From positions 85,497-117,540 of the forward strand of contig JAEOTX010000039.1 in the NCBI GenBank assembly GCA_016839605.1: a stretch of 32,044 nucleotides of DNA, written 5' to 3'. The stretch is from Candidatus Thorarchaeota archaeon. GTDB lineage: Archaea; Asgardarchaeota; Thorarchaeia; Thorarchaeales; Thorarchaeaceae. This document shows positions 1-7,208 of the stretch, piece after piece. The position numbers and the translations under genes were made by a program. Each line of letters starts with the position of its first letter. Position 1 is the first letter of the stretch. The notes beneath the pieces are model-generated. The model had not been told where the DNA came from, made no database searches, and worked only from the letters and a program-made list of their open reading frames with translations.

Positions 1-188
1 GGTTTGTAGATCTTTTTGCAGTTAGGCCACTCTTAGGTGTGGGAGAAACGAAACTGCCTCTCGACCAGCGTAAGAACAACATCATTCGCACAGAGAACTG
101 GAGTGTCACACCACCCTTCAGCTCAAGGCTATATCGACTTCAGGATATGAGATATGGGAGTCGAGCTCGGAAAGGGTGGGGCGCTGTA

Positions 189-2381
189 ATGAGTGCATTG
201 GATCTTAAAGAGACTTTGAGAAACGATAATCGACCAGATCTCTTGAGGTATTTTAAATCTCAATTGCCGCTGCTAATCGAGATGGAGCAGAAAGAAGATC
301 TTGACTTATTGATGGAATGGCTGGTTTTTCTAAAAGATGCGGGACTTGAGGCGCCTCCCACACTTTTCTCTGTCCGGAATCATAAGTCTTGGAACTCGGA
401 GATTATGCGGCTTCTACAAATTCCCAACTCCAGATTGCTACTTGCTGGTGCTACAATCACATCATTATCAGCATTAGTGAAGCACTTTCGAAACTCATCG
501 GGCGGTCCTGAGTGGTCCAAGAAGTTTGTCTTTGGAAGTGCATATCCTGAAACCCAAAAAGGAGATAGCATATCGGAGATTCTCAGCTATCTTTTGAGTA
601 ATAACCTTGGAGCAACTCCTGAAGAAGTGCAAAGGATTCTTGGAGGTAATCTTCTCAACATGTTTCCTCCTAGACCGCCATACTACGAGTATGTGGACAA
701 CACCTCCAGCGTAATTGCAGAAGGACTGATTGGAAAGGCAGCACTAAGTGAGCTGTCAAGAATCTTCAGAATCCTGGCAGCACGAAAACTCCAGATAATT
801 GAGTCCTTTGATTATATGATAACCAACGAAGGTGGTGAAGTTCACCTTAATGATTCGATTTTGACTGTCCGAAATCCAATATCAACGACTGCTAACACTA
901 TCGTGCTGCTAAACGATCCGGATGAATCACTTGTTGTTACCGGTTGGAGAAAATCTCTCACTAAGAAATCAATGGGGAGAAGAGCAGATCCGCTCACATC
1001 TCTAGCTCAAGCCGCCGCTAGATCAGATGGCTCGATACTGGACTCGCCATCAGACATAAACCGATTCAACTACGCCCTCTTAGACTGTCTCAAAGTAAAG
1101 AACATCCAGGAGATTCTTTCAGCTCTTCATTTCAAGCTTAATATGTCGGGCACAAAGAACGGAGTCCTGTTGATGTCAGAAGATGACATGAAAGCTGTGG
1201 GTGTAGCAAATGGCGATTTAGTATTGGGTATGGATGCTAAGGAGGGGCAATGGTGGGCAGGGCATTCAGAACTAGATGCCGATTGCCCTCAACGAACAGT
1301 CTGCGTTTCACAGGATGATGCCCACTTTCTTGGACTCTCTGAAGAATCAGTAGTGGACATTGTCAAGAGTGAAGGCAAAATCAAGAATTTGGATAGAGCG
1401 GTCTTTGCACTGGAATCAACAGGGGGATTCTCAAGGGCGGAACTTCTATCATATGCATACCTGCATGCGGACAGACTGCAAGAAACTCTAGATGGTCAAA
1501 TCCTAGGCAAGGGAACCTCTATCTGGATCAATGGCCGGGATGCAGGCGCTTGCATGACACTCACACATTCAGTCCCATCCCTAGAATCGGGTGAACTAGC
1601 GAGGCTCCCAGGCGACTCATTGGAGTTCAGACCCTCTCAGATGTTCAGACCATTTAACATGATTTTAGCCATATCAACAGATAGTGGGATGCGTGTGCAA
1701 GACATTGAACTCAAGACTATCCAGTCTTTGAAGCGCAGGCTAAGTACACTTGTTTCAGTAGTTCCGGAGATTGATGAGCTGCTATCTGGTCTGGGAACTT
1801 CGATAACTAGAATGGATATGGCAACGCTTGCCGCTTTGCTATTGATTCAGAGTCTGTCTGGAAATCGGTCTGAGGGATCACTAGGCATTGTCACAGTTTC
1901 CGAGTCGCCCACTAAGTTTTCAATTCAAAAAGGAGAGATTATTCAGACTAGCATGCGGTTCTCTAATGACTTTGCGTCTGAAGATGTGCTAGTGTCAATC
2001 CTCTATTCATTGTTGGATAGCTCTCGTGATTTTGGAGGTTCAGCTAGACTATCTGGGGCATTCAGGGTCATAGCTGAATTCCTAGAAGACTTTGGATCCG
2101 AAATGCCAACTCTAGTTGTGTTGATGGCCAATCTAGGCAACGAAACCTTTGAAGATGTGAAACCTTTCCTCCAAGCAATAGGGCCCAGAGATAGATACCA
2201 AATAGAAATCCTCAACCTTGGACAAGAAGCTCATAAGCTTGGTCCTGAATTTAAAGACATCAATGTCAAAGTTCACCAAATGACTAGTTTTGCGGCCGAT
2301 GTTTTTGAGGGATACTTGGCTAATGTCATTGAAAATCTAGTACCCGGAAATCTTGACCGTTCTACTTCTGACGAATTCTGA
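189..2381 (+). CDS. TIM-barrel-remnant / CDC48-N-like / degenerate vWA protein
   Basis: Large multidomain protein of 730 residues from the ATG at 189, which follows a GGGTGGGG ribosome site. The frame stays open to the window edge (a GTG lies at 39), so a longer N-terminus is possible. Residues ~80-160 resemble the C-terminal half of a TIM-barrel amidohydrolase, with a penultimate strand, FGSAYP where such enzymes have FGSDYP, and a final ILGGNLLNMF helix. The metal-binding Asp is therefore Ala. Residues ~325-395 look like a double-psi beta barrel (MKAVGVANGDLV) and ~400-485 like the second lobe of a CDC48 N-domain. Residues ~490-720 fit a vWA fold, but the MIDAS is broken: ISTDSG replaces DxSxS and the loop Thr and Asp are absent. 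It overlaps the convergent vWA operon by 20 bases and shares its domain types. Probably a non-catalytic scaffold. Fold calls are by eye; function unknown. Confidence 0.7.
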   Translation: MSALDLKETLRNDNRPDLLRYFKSQLPLLIEMEQKEDLDLLMEWLVFLKDAGLEAPPTLFSVRNHKSWNSEIMRLLQIPNSRLLLAGATITSLSALVKHFRNSSGGPEWSKKFVFGSAYPETQKGDSISEILSYLLSNNLGATPEEVQRILGGNLLNMFPPRPPYYEYVDNTSSVIAEGLIGKAALSELSRIFRILAARKLQIIESFDYMITNEGGEVHLNDSILTVRNPISTTANTIVLLNDPDESLVVTGWRKSLTKKSMGRRADPLTSLAQAAARSDGSILDSPSDINRFNYALLDCLKVKNIQEILSALHFKLNMSGTKNGVLLMSEDDMKAVGVANGDLVLGMDAKEGQWWAGHSELDADCPQRTVCVSQDDAHFLGLSEESVVDIVKSEGKIKNLDRAVFALESTGGFSRAELLSYAYLHADRLQETLDGQILGKGTSIWINGRDAGACMTLTHSVPSLESGELARLPGDSLEFRPSQMFRPFNMILAISTDSGMRVQDIELKTIQSLKRRLSTLVSVVPEIDELLSGLGTSITRMDMATLAALLLIQSLSGNRSEGSLGIVTVSESPTKFSIQKGEIIQTSMRFSNDFASEDVLVSILYSLLDSSRDFGGSARLSGAFRVIAEFLEDFGSEMPTLVVLMANLGNETFEDVKPFLQAIGPRDRYQIEILNLGQEAHKLGPEFKDINVKVHQMTSFAADVFEGYLANVIENLVPGNLDRSTSDEF

Positions 2382-2652
2382 TAGACTCTATTGTGGAGAT
2401 TCGTGTTTCTAAGACATCAACCTCCACTTCAGCTGCGTCTATCACATGGCCGATTTCTTCTATCGCATTAAAGAGATCACGAATACTTGAGCCGTCTATC
2501 CGTTCTGCCTCAGCAGCTGCAATAGACAGAGCCTCTTTAACTCCCCGTAGCCGTGTATCAATCTCCTCGATGATACACAGTGCTTCCTCCAATCTACCTA
2601 TTGCAGGGGGAGTTTTTAGACCCTCTGACATTAACCCCACATCCAAATTCAT
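2362..2652 (-). CDS. small coiled-coil protein of the vWA operon
   Basis: A 96-residue, strongly helical protein of unknown function. Most of it (~20-90) follows a heptad-like pattern rich in Glu, Ile, Leu and Ala, consistent with one long coiled coil. There is no signal peptide, membrane segment or cysteine motif. The ATG overlaps the stop of the preceding gene as ATGA, which is typical of translational coupling and supports this strand over the overlapping open frame on the other strand. Its 3' end runs 20 bases into the convergent multidomain vWA gene. The upstream partner also ends in a coiled coil, so the two may assemble together (inference). Confidence 0.7.
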   Translation of the reverse strand: MNLDVGLMSEGLKTPPAIGRLEEALCIIEEIDTRLRGVKEALSIAAAEAERIDGSSIRDLFNAIEEIGHVIDAAEVEVDVLETRISTIESIRIRQK

Positions 2653-3893
2653 TCAAGTAGCTGAGTAGCACGTTCCTCAATCTTTCCGAGTCGCGAAGAT
2701 AGTTCTTCAAGTCTGTCAAGCATATGACCAAGCTTGTTGCGCAGCATCCCAACAGCTGCGCCCTCATCTCCACCAAAATCACCTGTCATCATTTCTGACT
2801 TCTGCTGTTCTGCTAGAATTTGAGCTTGGTTCTCAACCAACTCAAGTCTCTCGATAATATCCTCAACTGGAAATTTCTCCATACGAATTCTAAGATCATC
2901 AACCAATTTAGTAAGAGCCTCGGCCGCTATTCGCTCTTCCTCGCTCACAATCGGTCTGACTGGTTCTGTGAGAGAGAAGGATTGCTTCACTCCCTCCATT
3001 ATGCCTCCACGGGGTTTGCTCACAATTACCTCGCGCGTTCTTGCTGGAGGGTGAATTCTATCACCTCTCTCGAACCAAGCTGGCACTATGAACTTCCGAG
3101 TGATATCTTCTAGGTCTGTGTCCAAGAGTATCGCGAAAGTAGCTAATTCTCGCGAATTATCCCATATTGCTAGTTCAACCAAATCTTCTTTCCTGAAAAT
3201 CGCTGTGGCTACTCCTAGATTCAAATCCTCGAACACAGGTAGGTCAATCAACCAACGACTGAATAAAAGAGCAAAAGCTGGAATCTGCCTTAGCTTGCCA
3301 CAGCGAAGGGCAATTTGGTATTCATCTTCCGGCTGCTGAACAGCCTGCTTTATCCATATCGATGTGTTGAATTTTCTACCTGGAATGCTCAGACTGAGAA
3401 CCTCCGCGGCCTCCCATTCAATGGCATCAATTCTCAGTTGCTCAATGTAATCCAGATTGGGCTCCTCGAATTCGGGAGAGAGTTTCTCTCCAAGGAGATA
3501 CTTCAGCACAAGACGAATGATATCCTGTGGAGTGTAGTCACGCAGCCAAATCGTTGTTGCAAGCTTAGCTCGGCCCGGAGCACGTGCATCATCTGAGAGT
3601 ACAACAACTAGCTTCGATGATTCCAAGCCCGGCTCTCCAAGAATGAAAATGCCTGTTCTCCCAGGAGCATCCATGGCACGGTCAGCCATCAAATGTACAG
3701 CTTCATGGGTGGGTTCAATGTAATTCTCCTGATTGAATTTCGAACTTGATGACTCTTGGAGCCCCTTAACCAATAGCCCCTCCTCAACCCAGCCTGATTT
3801 CAGGCCCTTCTCTGGCAGCTGAGAAATTAGATATCCTAGGACCTCGCTGCTGCTATACATTGCCTGAAGTCTGGTTATTGCTTCTTCGTTCAC
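2649..3893 (-). CDS. unrecognised protein with C-terminal coiled coil, vWA operon
   Basis: A 414-residue protein that I do not recognise. Residues 1-300 look globular and mixed alpha/beta, with a strand-like hydrophobic stretch TGIFILGEPG near 80-89 and another near 95-100. There is no Walker motif, so it should not be called an ATPase. Residues ~315-365 and ~380-414 are charged heptad-type helices, split by a Gly/Asp-rich linker (GDFGGDEG). Translation starts at a GTG overlapping the stop of the upstream vWA gene (GTGA), and its own stop overlaps the next start (ATGA), so it is the middle of a tightly coupled operon. Its conserved position between vWA proteins and a coiled-coil protein suggests a structural subunit or adaptor (inference). 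Confidence 0.75.
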   Translation of the reverse strand: MNEEAITRLQAMYSSSEVLGYLISQLPEKGLKSGWVEEGLLVKGLQESSSSKFNQENYIEPTHEAVHLMADRAMDAPGRTGIFILGEPGLESSKLVVVLSDDARAPGRAKLATTIWLRDYTPQDIIRLVLKYLLGEKLSPEFEEPNLDYIEQLRIDAIEWEAAEVLSLSIPGRKFNTSIWIKQAVQQPEDEYQIALRCGKLRQIPAFALLFSRWLIDLPVFEDLNLGVATAIFRKEDLVELAIWDNSRELATFAILLDTDLEDITRKFIVPAWFERGDRIHPPARTREVIVSKPRGGIMEGVKQSFSLTEPVRPIVSEEERIAAEALTKLVDDLRIRMEKFPVEDIIERLELVENQAQILAEQQKSEMMTGDFGGDEGAAVGMLRNKLGHMLDRLEELSSRLGKIEERATQLLE

Positions 3894-5017
3894 TTGCCAA
3901 CAGCCTCGCTACGAATCCTTTCGAAAATACGCTCAATCACTAGTTTAACATCTTTGTATTGGCCTATATGAATCAGACTCCCAGACCCTGCATCGGCTGT
4001 TGCCTGCATCAAAACCAAATCTGATTCGGTCCCCAATGCCACGCATGAAACTGAAACTCCATCAGTTGCACCAATTGTCCGTGCCACACTCACTGGATTG
4101 CGACCTGATGTAAAAGCCCCTCCAGATATGAGCAAAACAACAGTGGGAAGATGATTCTGCGATCTTAATTCGTTTGCAATTTGAAGAGACATCTCCAAGG
4201 CTTTTCCGGGATTTGATGGTTCATCTTTTCGGTCATCATTTTGTGCGGAGAGCCATTCATGGATCTGGTTAAATGATTTTGAATTAAGCTCCAGTGCCAT
4301 GTCCTCAACACTCTCTATTTGCTGGGGAGACTCACCAAAAGCGATGGCTGAAACCAAGGCGTTTGGACACGCACGAGCTGAGGATAATGTGGATTGAATT
4401 ACGCTTAAGCCAGCTTCTAATCGAGTCTTTCTATGAGATTCATCATCCACTTCAACATCATCAATCTCAGATGACGCTCCGACATCGATTGCATAGCATA
4501 TATTGAAGCAACTGGGCACATCTGCAAGAGCGGTGAGATTGACCTTCAGCAGCTGGTTCCATATGATTCTCGAAGCCTGCAATCCCTTAGCGACAGGGTT
4601 TGATTTGTCAACTACCAGTCTTAGGCCAAGGCCAGCAATATCAATCCGTTGCCCAAGTTTAACAATCAGACCGTCAAGATGTTCCTTGAGATCTTCAACT
4701 TTCTTAGACACTTCATCTACAACTTTCTTGTTATCCAATCCTTTCAATGAATCCACAAGAAGAGCAAGTTCATTGCAATCGGGAATCTCCTCTGGAACTG
4801 CAGCCAAAGAAATCTCACAGTGTTCTTCGCATGCTAATTCATCGAATATTCGAGAATCGATTATTAAGGAGCCAGAATCTACTTGTTCTGATGTACGAAT
4901 ATCCGTATAGACTTCTACTCCTTGATAACTTAATAGTGCCGTTCTTACAGCAGTCACAGATGGATGCACAAATGATATGCCTCTCTGGTTTCGTCCTTTG
5001 ACAGCTTCAAGCTCCAA
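3890..5017 (-). CDS. CDC48-N-like domain plus degenerate vWA domain protein
   Basis: 375 residues from a TTG start, 14 bases after the stop of the upstream vWA gene. Residues ~1-85 resemble the double-psi barrel of CDC48/p97 N-domains (GRNQRGISFVHPS, then a GSLIID strand), and ~110-160 the second lobe. A charged helix lies at ~95-115. A vWA-like fold spans ~168-372, but its metal site is degraded: DVGASS replaces DxSxS, the threonine loop reads SNPGKAL, and LLISGGAF replaces the usual strand-Asp-Gly. Divalent metal binding is therefore doubtful. In p97 the N-domain binds adaptors or substrates, and in vWA proteins the MIDAS loop binds partner acidic groups. Here both are probably used for protein assembly with the intact vWA protein encoded just upstream (inference). 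Confidence 0.75.
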   Translation of the reverse strand: MELEAVKGRNQRGISFVHPSVTAVRTALLSYQGVEVYTDIRTSEQVDSGSLIIDSRIFDELACEEHCEISLAAVPEEIPDCNELALLVDSLKGLDNKKVVDEVSKKVEDLKEHLDGLIVKLGQRIDIAGLGLRLVVDKSNPVAKGLQASRIIWNQLLKVNLTALADVPSCFNICYAIDVGASSEIDDVEVDDESHRKTRLEAGLSVIQSTLSSARACPNALVSAIAFGESPQQIESVEDMALELNSKSFNQIHEWLSAQNDDRKDEPSNPGKALEMSLQIANELRSQNHLPTVVLLISGGAFTSGRNPVSVARTIGATDGVSVSCVALGTESDLVLMQATADAGSGSLIHIGQYKDVKLVIERIFERIRSEAVGK

Positions 5018-5031
5018 AGCCTGCCACTCAC

Positions 5032-6174
5032 CTAATATAGACGCGTATTGTATATCGCAGTTGCGAGGGATTTGGAACCGTACATGACCTCAACACGCAT
5101 GCTCGCTTTGCCCTTTTCATCTGACATTGGTGTGAGCTGCGATTCAATGTGTCGTTCAGAGTTGGGTCCAATTTCATGCTTCTCATTAGTAACCTCTGAT
5201 ACTCCTTCAGGAGTAATCAAGGTAACAACAAGCCTGATTCCAATAACGGCACGACTTGGATTCTTCACCCTCAAGTCAAACATGAATGGCCTTCCTGCAA
5301 TTAGAGCATCAGGAACGTCTCCAAGTTCAACACTCATACCCATTTTTGATGCTGCAAGTGGACGTCCCTTTGGCCATCTAGCAATCTTACTAAGCTCAAG
5401 AAGCCGCGAGAGTGATGTCTTCACATCCCTGAGTTCCAATTCAAGCTGCACAGCTGCTTCCCCAATATCAAATGTCCCATCATTTGCCTCATAATATGCG
5501 AGGACTCTGCGATCTGATTCAATTAGATCACTCACTCCCTCGAGGATTTGAAGAATAGCCTCTGGCAATTCGTGTGCCTCCTGAAGGGAATAGTATCGCC
5601 CTCCATCAACTGAATCAGCGATGCCCTTGAATGACTCCCGAACAAGGGGGTTGCATCCGCAGATGAATATGAAGACGGTCTCTCCGTAGCGGCTCTTGAG
5701 GGCTTGCACTTCTCTACGAGGATCGTGTCCCTTTGGACACCCATCAGGGAAATAGTCATCGCCCAAGGTATTGTACGCTCTGCCATGAGGCGGCGCATCA
5801 CCTACAAGAAGCAGTGCTTTGTAGGCCTGCTCATCCCAGGAGAGCTTGGTCCGTGCATCATATAATCCATCAGCGACAGCCTCAGGTGTGTCACCACCCT
5901 GAGAAGGATTAAGATTTGATATCTCTCTGTGTACGTTCTTGAGACGATCCGAGAAATCGAATATGCGTGTCACATAGGAATGGTCCTGAGGCGGATGATC
6001 ACGATATGACACTATTGCGAAACGTATACTGAGACTCTTTGTTCGTGTAGTGATTTTGTCTACGATATCAAATAGACTATCTTTCACTGCACGAATGTCA
6101 TCTTTCATTGAACCAGTCGTATCTACAACAAAGGCAACGTCAAGTTTGGCTCTATGCAGCCCAATCCTCTCCAT
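5032..6174 (-). CDS. vWA-domain protein with intact MIDAS (VwkA-type vWA), winged helix and beta-sandwich tail
   Basis: First gene of the vWA operon, 380 residues, ATG start after AGGTTCAT. Residues ~10-215 are a vWA domain of the subtype seen in von Willebrand alpha-kinases. It has DTTGSM (18-23), YRDHP, GGDTPEAV (93-100) with the MIDAS Thr, and VGDAPPHG (124-131) followed by a GDDYFPDGCPKGHD loop. All metal-site residues are present, unlike in its two neighbours. Residues ~215-265 look like a winged-helix-type helical segment, and ~275-380 like an Ig/CARDB-type beta-sandwich (FDLRVKNPSRAVIGIRLVV). No kinase domain and no signal peptide are seen, so it is probably cytosolic. It is likely the metal-dependent recognition subunit of the complex (inference). 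Confidence 0.85.
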   Translation of the reverse strand: MERIGLHRAKLDVAFVVDTTGSMKDDIRAVKDSLFDIVDKITTRTKSLSIRFAIVSYRDHPPQDHSYVTRIFDFSDRLKNVHREISNLNPSQGGDTPEAVADGLYDARTKLSWDEQAYKALLLVGDAPPHGRAYNTLGDDYFPDGCPKGHDPRREVQALKSRYGETVFIFICGCNPLVRESFKGIADSVDGGRYYSLQEAHELPEAILQILEGVSDLIESDRRVLAYYEANDGTFDIGEAAVQLELELRDVKTSLSRLLELSKIARWPKGRPLAASKMGMSVELGDVPDALIAGRPFMFDLRVKNPSRAVIGIRLVVTLITPEGVSEVTNEKHEIGPNSERHIESQLTPMSDEKGKASMRVEVMYGSKSLATAIYNTRLY

Positions 6175-6653: not shown

Positions 6654-7208
6654 CTAAAGACCCTGCTGCAAGTTGCGAAGAAGAAGCTCATTTTCATCAG
6701 GCTCTATCACGGTGGGATCTACGACTATACCTGGCTCATTAGCCTCAATGACTACATCAATACCAGATTGACTGACTTTCTTTATTCCTGAGTGCGATAG
6801 TGCTCTTACGCGTAGTTGTGTGGTGTCAAACTCGGTTCTATCTGCCGCTTCAACCGCCTTTACATCTCTGCGCAGTTTCGTCTTTGTTATTCTGAGCTGT
6901 TCCTTTAATTGAACCAGTTGGAGCTGAAGATCGATTCGCTCCCGATCTGCCTCTTCGAATTTTGCTACCACATCATCATACTGGGTCTTTGAAACCAATT
7001 TCTGACTCTGATCAATCCAAGTTATGGTGGTGCCATCAAACCGACGTTTTGTCGACACTTGTCCTAAAGCTTTGAGTACAGCAATCACATCATAGATTCG
7101 ACGCTTAGGAGTGGCGAGCTGTTCAGCTAAAACATCGCTTCTAACGCCTTCCTCCCCACATTCCTGAATTATTCTAACCGCAGTCTTCGCCAAATCTACA
7201 AGTTTCAA
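6654..7208 (-). CDS. E2F/DP-like winged-helix protein with coiled coil
   Basis: A 184-residue putative transcription regulator. Residues ~5-66 form a winged helix whose recognition helix reads KRRIYDVIAVLKALG (35-49), closely matching the RRIYDI-N-VLE signature of eukaryotic E2F and DP factors. It is followed by a basic wing ending in TITWID. Residues ~75-122 are a leucine-rich charged coiled coil (LQLQLVQLKEQL), placed like the E2F/DP dimerisation helix. The tail is acidic and contains no recognisable retinoblastoma-binding motif. The TTG start is chosen because GGGGTG sits six bases upstream. The promoter region is shared with the divergent cDPG synthetase-type gene and holds several palindromes, so autoregulation is plausible. 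Homology with E2F versus convergence on the motif cannot be settled by eye. Confidence 0.75.
   Translation of the reverse strand: MKLVDLAKTAVRIIQECGEEGVRSDVLAEQLATPKRRIYDVIAVLKALGQVSTKRRFDGTTITWIDQSQKLVSKTQYDDVVAKFEEADRERIDLQLQLVQLKEQLRITKTKLRRDVKAVEAADRTEFDTTQLRVRALSHSGIKKVSQSGIDVVIEANEPGIVVDPTVIEPDENELLLRNLQQGL

Follow-up and report, generated by a model that had tools for sequence, protein, structure and literature searches.

A Thorarchaeial cassette of vWA and CDC48-N-like proteins with an active-type pair, putative inactive paralogues, and a predicted roadblock-type subunit

What might a group of vWA proteins, some of them carrying CDC48-N-like barrels, do together when no ATPase is recognized among their neighbors? 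This question is raised by a cassette of five genes, which we call FUS, CC96, CCtail, dvWA375, and vWA380, at one end of a 32,044-nucleotide stretch of Candidatus Thorarchaeota archaeon DNA (contig C179, positions 85497 to 117540, of a 3.1-Mb genome; hereafter, the window). Thorarchaeota belong to the Asgard archaea, the microbes closest to eukaryotes. A literature search, with most subscription journals outside its reach, turned up no account of either the family or the cassette, which appears to be undescribed. The initial annotation had read it as a group of vWA and CDC48-N proteins of the scaffold type, and the predicted folds agree. The explanation that we prefer, with a probability of roughly 0.4, is that a scaffold of active and inactive paralogues holds a roadblock-type subunit and probably regulates a small GTPase or the cytoskeleton.

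Active-type proteins and their derivatives

About 145 bases upstream of FUS, outside the window and divergent from it, lie the genes of a 502-residue protein, AMH, and a 426-residue protein, C48vWA, followed by a HEAT-repeat gene. AMH matches the Pfam family Amidohydro_2 (PF04909) at 4e-13, and among 20 C48vWA homologues VWA_2 was found in all and CDC48_N in 8 (best, 1.2e-9). Single-sequence Pfam scans missed three of the five window proteins, and profiles and consensus sequences were needed. FUS and dvWA375 as single sequences gave no Pfam match over the cut-off; against the C48vWA family, whose members carry CDC48_N and VWA, they aligned in hhalign with E values of 6e-35 and 5e-31, respectively. 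The dvWA375 family consensus passed the Pfam cut-offs for CDC48_2 (2.3e-5) and VWA (2.5e-6), and dvWA375 matched vWA domains in the PDB at 1e-5. The FUS barrel gave a weak match to Molydop_binding, which has the same barrel fold (E = 0.003), the N-terminal half of FUS is similar to AMH in BLASTP, and AlphaFold2 gave a confident structure for a FUS orthologue of 81% identity (predicted local distance difference test [pLDDT] score, 84.5). C48vWA, FUS, and dvWA375 each end with a vWA domain. Judged by profile alignment, FUS and dvWA375 are paralogues of C48vWA over the barrel, the clam, and the vWA domain, which is its whole length; CCtail displayed no such paralogy by profile comparison.

The residues that distinguish these proteins are sharply divided. 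In AMH the metal-site residues HxH, K, H, H, and D are retained in all 47 sequences, whereas in FUS other residues stand in place of the ligand His (AHC) and Asp (GSD) in no fewer than 37 of 38 sequences, the HxH pair is not retained, and the KLHP segment is missing. FUS thus keeps the fold of the Amidohydro_2 family without the metal site and differs further in its C-terminal CDC48-N and vWA domains. The "TIM-barrel remnant" noticed earlier is accordingly an amidohydrolase-like barrel that has lost its metal site, yet it is a whole domain and not a remnant. The metal ion-dependent adhesion site (MIDAS) follows the same division, being intact in all 20 C48vWA sequences with data and lost from dvWA375. 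Most of the 25 FUS orthologues carry S, A, or V for D, G or D for S, and N or S for the distal D in the MIDAS columns. Because the metal site and MIDAS are kept in AMH and C48vWA and lost in FUS and dvWA375, these sequences indicate that the locus is made up of an active-type pair and two inactive derivatives, one of which, FUS, fuses both partners. It would clearly exemplify how active and inactive versions of a paralogue pair, both enzyme and vWA protein, persist side by side at a single locus.

The remaining vWA protein, vWA380, matches VWA_4 at 1.5e-13 and VWA at 1e-9. Its MIDAS is a DxTxS...T...D variant, retained in nearly all of 18 orthologues (61 to 94% identity). The count given by the initial annotation, one intact vWA protein beside two in which CDC48-N-like barrels precede degenerate vWA domains, is therefore borne out.

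Conservation and joint loss in Thorarchaeia

The order HEAT, C48vWA, AMH, FUS, (CC96, CCtail, dvWA375, vWA380), cyclophilin-like, and E2F-like is kept in about 30 Thorarchaeial loci and likewise about 30 genomes, so that the arrangement was not read by chance. However, the flanking order is also conserved over about 20 kb (SPFH, NfeD, CAAX protease, E2F-like, and cobW-like genes), so that adjacency is weak evidence in Thorarchaeia. This conservation far beyond the cassette is what would be expected if slow rearrangement merely kept together genes without a joint function.

Joint loss is stronger evidence for a unit than gene order. Five genomes that are 95 to 99% complete (G006, G012, G013, G015, and G023) all lack C48vWA, AMH, and full-length vWA380; in none of them does CCtail find a match outside the coiled coil, and G015 has a coiled-coil match. 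FUS and the HEAT gene are retained in G006, G012, and G015. In a tree of the flanking genes and FUS, G006 falls with G030 and G017, G012 with G022, and G015 with G008 and G014 (support around G015 is moderate, 73). Because these three genomes fall in separate clades, the tree indicates that the pair and the window operon were lost together at least three independent times. The unit is therefore larger than the five genes first proposed and includes the divergent AMH-C48vWA pair, which is lost along with the operon. These losses of AMH, C48vWA, and vWA380 while the flanking genes stay, together with the paralogy between the two halves and the fusion of CC96 with CCtail in relatives, make it very unlikely that the genes are unrelated neighbors. 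A slight acceleration of the FUS branch where the partners were lost (P = 0.03, n = 3) was not relied on.

CCtail, related loci, and the possible role of the cassette

The initial annotation had left CCtail unrecognized apart from its coiled-coil tail. The folded part indeed has no Pfam match, but its AlphaFold2 model (pLDDT, 79) shows two helix-strand-strand-helix-three strands-helix units with a coiled coil after them. An alignment of one half with the other spans 93 columns (P = 0.003). In Foldseek, TagF came first (7e-5); the matches that followed included Fuzzy-Inturned and KICSTOR chains, and TM-scores were low throughout. CCtail is accordingly predicted to consist of two roadblock/longin-type domains and a coiled coil. 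An N-terminal helix in the order of elements is the mark of roadblock rather than longin domains (PMC10933270), and the predicted order in CCtail fits the former. Compared with roadblock/LC7 and longin proteins (MglB, LAMTOR, NPRL2/3, and Fuzzy-Inturned), CCtail shares the repeats in roadblock order and the longin fold matches but differs in its lack of a Pfam match, its tandem arrangement in one chain, its long coiled coil, and the absence of a conserved arginine finger. The coiled coils suggested earlier for the CCtail tail and for CC96 are both supported by prediction, and a CC96-like sequence is fused to the CCtail C terminus in three relatives (L086, L089, and L090). In four loci of one genus (L081, L083, L087, and L104), CCtail is down to about 100 residues, coiled coil only, and dvWA375 is missing.

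Of 228 Asgard genomes, 130 have homologues of C48vWA. A scan of 84,980 species yielded 105 relatives, the best 80 of which were all Asgard-named, bar one labeled only "archaeon." In Lokiarchaeota, a longer C48vWA homologue stands co-directionally behind gelsolin-like and roadblock/LC7 genes in 25 loci and is followed by ACT-domain, uncharacterized, actin-family (the third gene; Pfam Actin, 1e-48), and CHAT-like genes. The actin-family protein has diverged, scoring about 135 bits against the best solved actin, and so is probably not lokiactin proper. Gelsolin-like genes also occur near AMH-C48vWA in four Jord-, Frey-, or Sigynarchaeial loci (L111 to L114). Across Lokiarchaeial loci L117 to L154, the cluster comprises YjeF, gelsolin-like, roadblock/LC7, CDC48-N-vWA, ACT-domain, uncharacterized, actin-family, CHAT-like, and PLD-like genes, and in L065 and L066 (Lokiarchaeia) the C48vWA homologues have a proline-rich linker and, at the N terminus, an additional segment that resembles a barrel.

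It is mainly because roadblock-type proteins recur beside CDC48-N-vWA proteins in two classes that we favor a role with a GTPase or the cytoskeleton. The cassette would be one half of an Asgard-specific scaffold system whose core is the active-type AMH-C48vWA pair outside the window, with FUS and dvWA375 as its Thorarchaeial inactive paralogues. Most likely, FUS, dvWA375, vWA380, CCtail, and CC96 would form a hetero-oligomer in which MIDAS-containing vWA domains may bind partners through metal, the barrels and pseudo-copies would build the frame, and the roadblock-type subunit could be where a small GTPase or the actin system docks. We infer the physical complex and its GTPase or cytoskeletal output; the homology, the loss of catalytic and metal residues, the conserved order, and the repeated co-loss are observed. 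If this explanation is true, vWA scaffolds, CDC48-N barrels, and roadblock-type domains come together in one conserved system of the Asgard archaea, and in other classes actin, gelsolin-like, and roadblock genes lie close to it.

Besides the conserved flanks, several observations weigh against this explanation. The folded part of CCtail gave no Robl_LC7 match either as a single sequence or as a consensus, and its profile showed no similarity to the Lokiarchaeial roadblock family. Residues 1 to 285 of CCtail hold no invariant or nearly invariant Arg among 22 orthologues, and therefore no NPRL2-like arginine finger. No small GTPase gene was recognized among the Pfam-scanned neighbors. FUS persists in three genomes that lost the rest and therefore has some role independent of its partners, and several lineages lack dvWA375 and CCtail or have shorter versions of them. 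Finally, G002, a single-contig assembly estimated to be 77% complete, keeps the window operon and has no C48vWA. Its AMH, at G002:C1:556555-556776, is reduced to the first 74 residues (69% identity), which represents either a truncated gene or an assembly fault.

The AMH loci of other classes bring a different function into consideration. In Jord- and Freyarchaeia and in one Helarchaeon, AMH is adjacent to or near the C48vWA homologue, and a GCS2-like protein of 1,146 to 1,190 residues (Pfam GCS2, 2e-4 in Thor and 7.5e-10 in Jord) with its small partner (233/248 residues) is common to the Thor, Jord/Freya, and Hel AMH-C48vWA loci. A protein- or metabolite-modification system could be built from these parts, the GCS2-like amidoligase forming an amide bond, AMH, with every metal ligand retained, breaking that bond, and substrates or partners being held by the CDC48-N-vWA proteins and by the inactive copies of these. 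We regard this as unlikely, in that neither AMH nor a GCS2-like gene lies near the C48vWA homologue in Lokiarchaeota and the roadblock-type subunit of the window is left unaccounted for. The GCS2-like proteins at L003:1293-4733 and L061:6747-10289 are very long, with a C-terminal extension.

The fold matches of FUS point in two further directions. Its model has DEPDC5 as the best PDB match (E = 5.6e-12) and p97 N-D1 chains next (from 4e-11), a small margin, with low TM-scores over these multi-domain chains. The N-terminal domain of DEPDC5 has been likened to Sec18/NSF and its SABA domain to Sec23, NPRL2 and NPRL3 are its longin partners, and the domain set has been called unique (PMC8534245). 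DEPDC5/Iml1 of GATOR1/SEACIT and the proteins described here may share a CDC48-N/NSF-N-like barrel followed by a vWA/Sec23-like domain and, by prediction, roadblock/longin-type partners; however, C48vWA, FUS, and dvWA375 lack the SHEN, DEP, and C-terminal domains and are fused or linked to an amidohydrolase. With the N-terminal 385 residues of DEPDC5 as the query, checked against PDB chains, one C48vWA-family profile (A1) aligned collinearly (hhalign score, 27.8, versus a maximum of 23.1 among 190 decoys), and the other profiles gave no signal. Nor did a merged profile of 86 sequences, and the Pfam model IML1 (PF12257) gave noise over 226 Asgard genomes, with none over the cut-off; IML1 and IML1_N had no match in the C48vWA genes or consensus sequences. 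The CCtail profile likewise found nothing in NPRL2, which served, like VCP-N, as a comparison target. As the merged profile lacks signal and the IML1 models find nothing, homology to DEPDC5 is not claimed, and because the sequence support is weak, the SHEN, DEP, and C-terminal domains are absent, and there is no arginine finger, we say that the system may work like GATOR1 rather than that it is one. That the Asgard CDC48-N-vWA proteins are related to the N-terminal module of DEPDC5/Iml1 and, with a tandem roadblock/longin-type protein, form a pre-eukaryotic GATOR1-like regulator of small GTPases is quite improbable. If it were true, archaea would offer a place to test how nutrient-sensing GTPase regulators arose, because the DEPDC5 domain set has been called unique.

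The p97 matches, the CDC48_N and CDC48_2 similarity, and the presence of CDC48 genes in this genome would suit an adaptor complex whose CDC48-N domains let it dock on CDC48 or on a different unfoldase ATPase. The C48vWA family shares these two modules with the N domains of CDC48/p97/VAT and Ufd1 but has no AAA domains, and the modules lead into vWA. Proteins with their own CDC48-N-type barrel, such as Ufd1, contact p97 by other motifs, and having the barrel is therefore no predictor of docking in itself. The CDC48 genes lend no support because all tested genomes have CDC48, those lacking the cassette included. As the initial annotation had stated, neither a MoxR-type nor any other ATPase was recognized in Pfam scans of the neighbors. 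The closest structural neighbor of the CDC48-N-vWA layout, DEPDC5 of GATOR1, is not an ATPase adaptor, and we give docking little credence. MoxR-type AAA ATPase-vWA systems resemble the cassette in encoding vWA proteins together, with active and degenerate MIDAS, but differ in their ATPase and in lacking the CDC48-N barrels.

Gene layout and neighboring genes

All five genes are real and adjacent, and the couplings noted at first inspection are present. A 14-base gap separates vWA380 and dvWA375 (between 5032 and 5017), a GTGA overlap at 3890 to 3893 joins dvWA375 and CCtail, and an ATGA overlap at 2649 to 2652 joins CCtail and CC96 (Table 1). The start of FUS had been placed at 189, but the gene is cut by the window edge; its frame continues through window base 1 to the true start at C179:85217, 280 bases upstream, for a full length of 886 residues (open frame, 893 residues). 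FUS runs toward the minus-strand operon, with 20 bases of its 3' end overlapping the CC96 gene.

Table 1. Features of the cassette in window coordinates
Feature	Positions	Strand	Basis
FUS, 886 residues: pseudo-amidohydrolase, linker domain, CDC48-N barrel, CDC48_2-like domain, vWA without MIDAS	1..2381 in window	+	Open frame, AlphaFold2 model of orthologue, hhalign
FUS amidohydrolase-like barrel, metal site lost; first ~94 residues outside window	1..696	+	BLASTP to 502-residue AMH; ligand columns
FUS CDC48-N-like double-psi barrel	1125..1407	+	Profile comparison, AlphaFold2 model, fold matches, weak Molydop_binding
FUS CDC48_2 (clam)-like domain	1413..1638	+	Position in model and alignment
FUS vWA domain, MIDAS lost	1644..2328	+	MIDAS columns in 25 orthologues
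CC96, 96-residue coiled-coil protein	2362..2652	-	Open reading frame; CC96-like sequence fused to CCtail in relatives
CCtail, 414 residues: two predicted roadblock/longin-type domains, coiled-coil tail	2649..3893	-	AlphaFold2, Foldseek, half-to-half alignment
CCtail domain 1, helix-strand-strand-helix-3 strands-helix	3495..3887	-	AlphaFold2 model
CCtail domain 2, main elements in same order as domain 1	3075..3449	-	AlphaFold2 model, half-to-half alignment
CCtail coiled coil	2655..2942	-	Prediction
dvWA375: CDC48-N/CDC48_2-like region, vWA without MIDAS	3890..5017	-	hhalign, consensus Pfam, MIDAS columns, PDB vWA matches
vWA380: vWA with intact MIDAS, C-terminal Ig-like domain (weak)	5032..6174	-	Pfam, MIDAS conservation, orthologues

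Two neighboring genes deserve mention. In L061, L063, and L064, the FUS homologue has a divergently oriented SPFH (stomatin-type) gene as its neighbor; the Thorarchaeial SPFH and NfeD genes are about 5 to 6 kb off. A 184-residue protein encoded at 6654 to 7208 on the minus strand matches the E2F/DP winged-helix family at 35.1 bits (Pfam cut-off, 25.7 bits), and it adjoins the cassette across Thorarchaeia.

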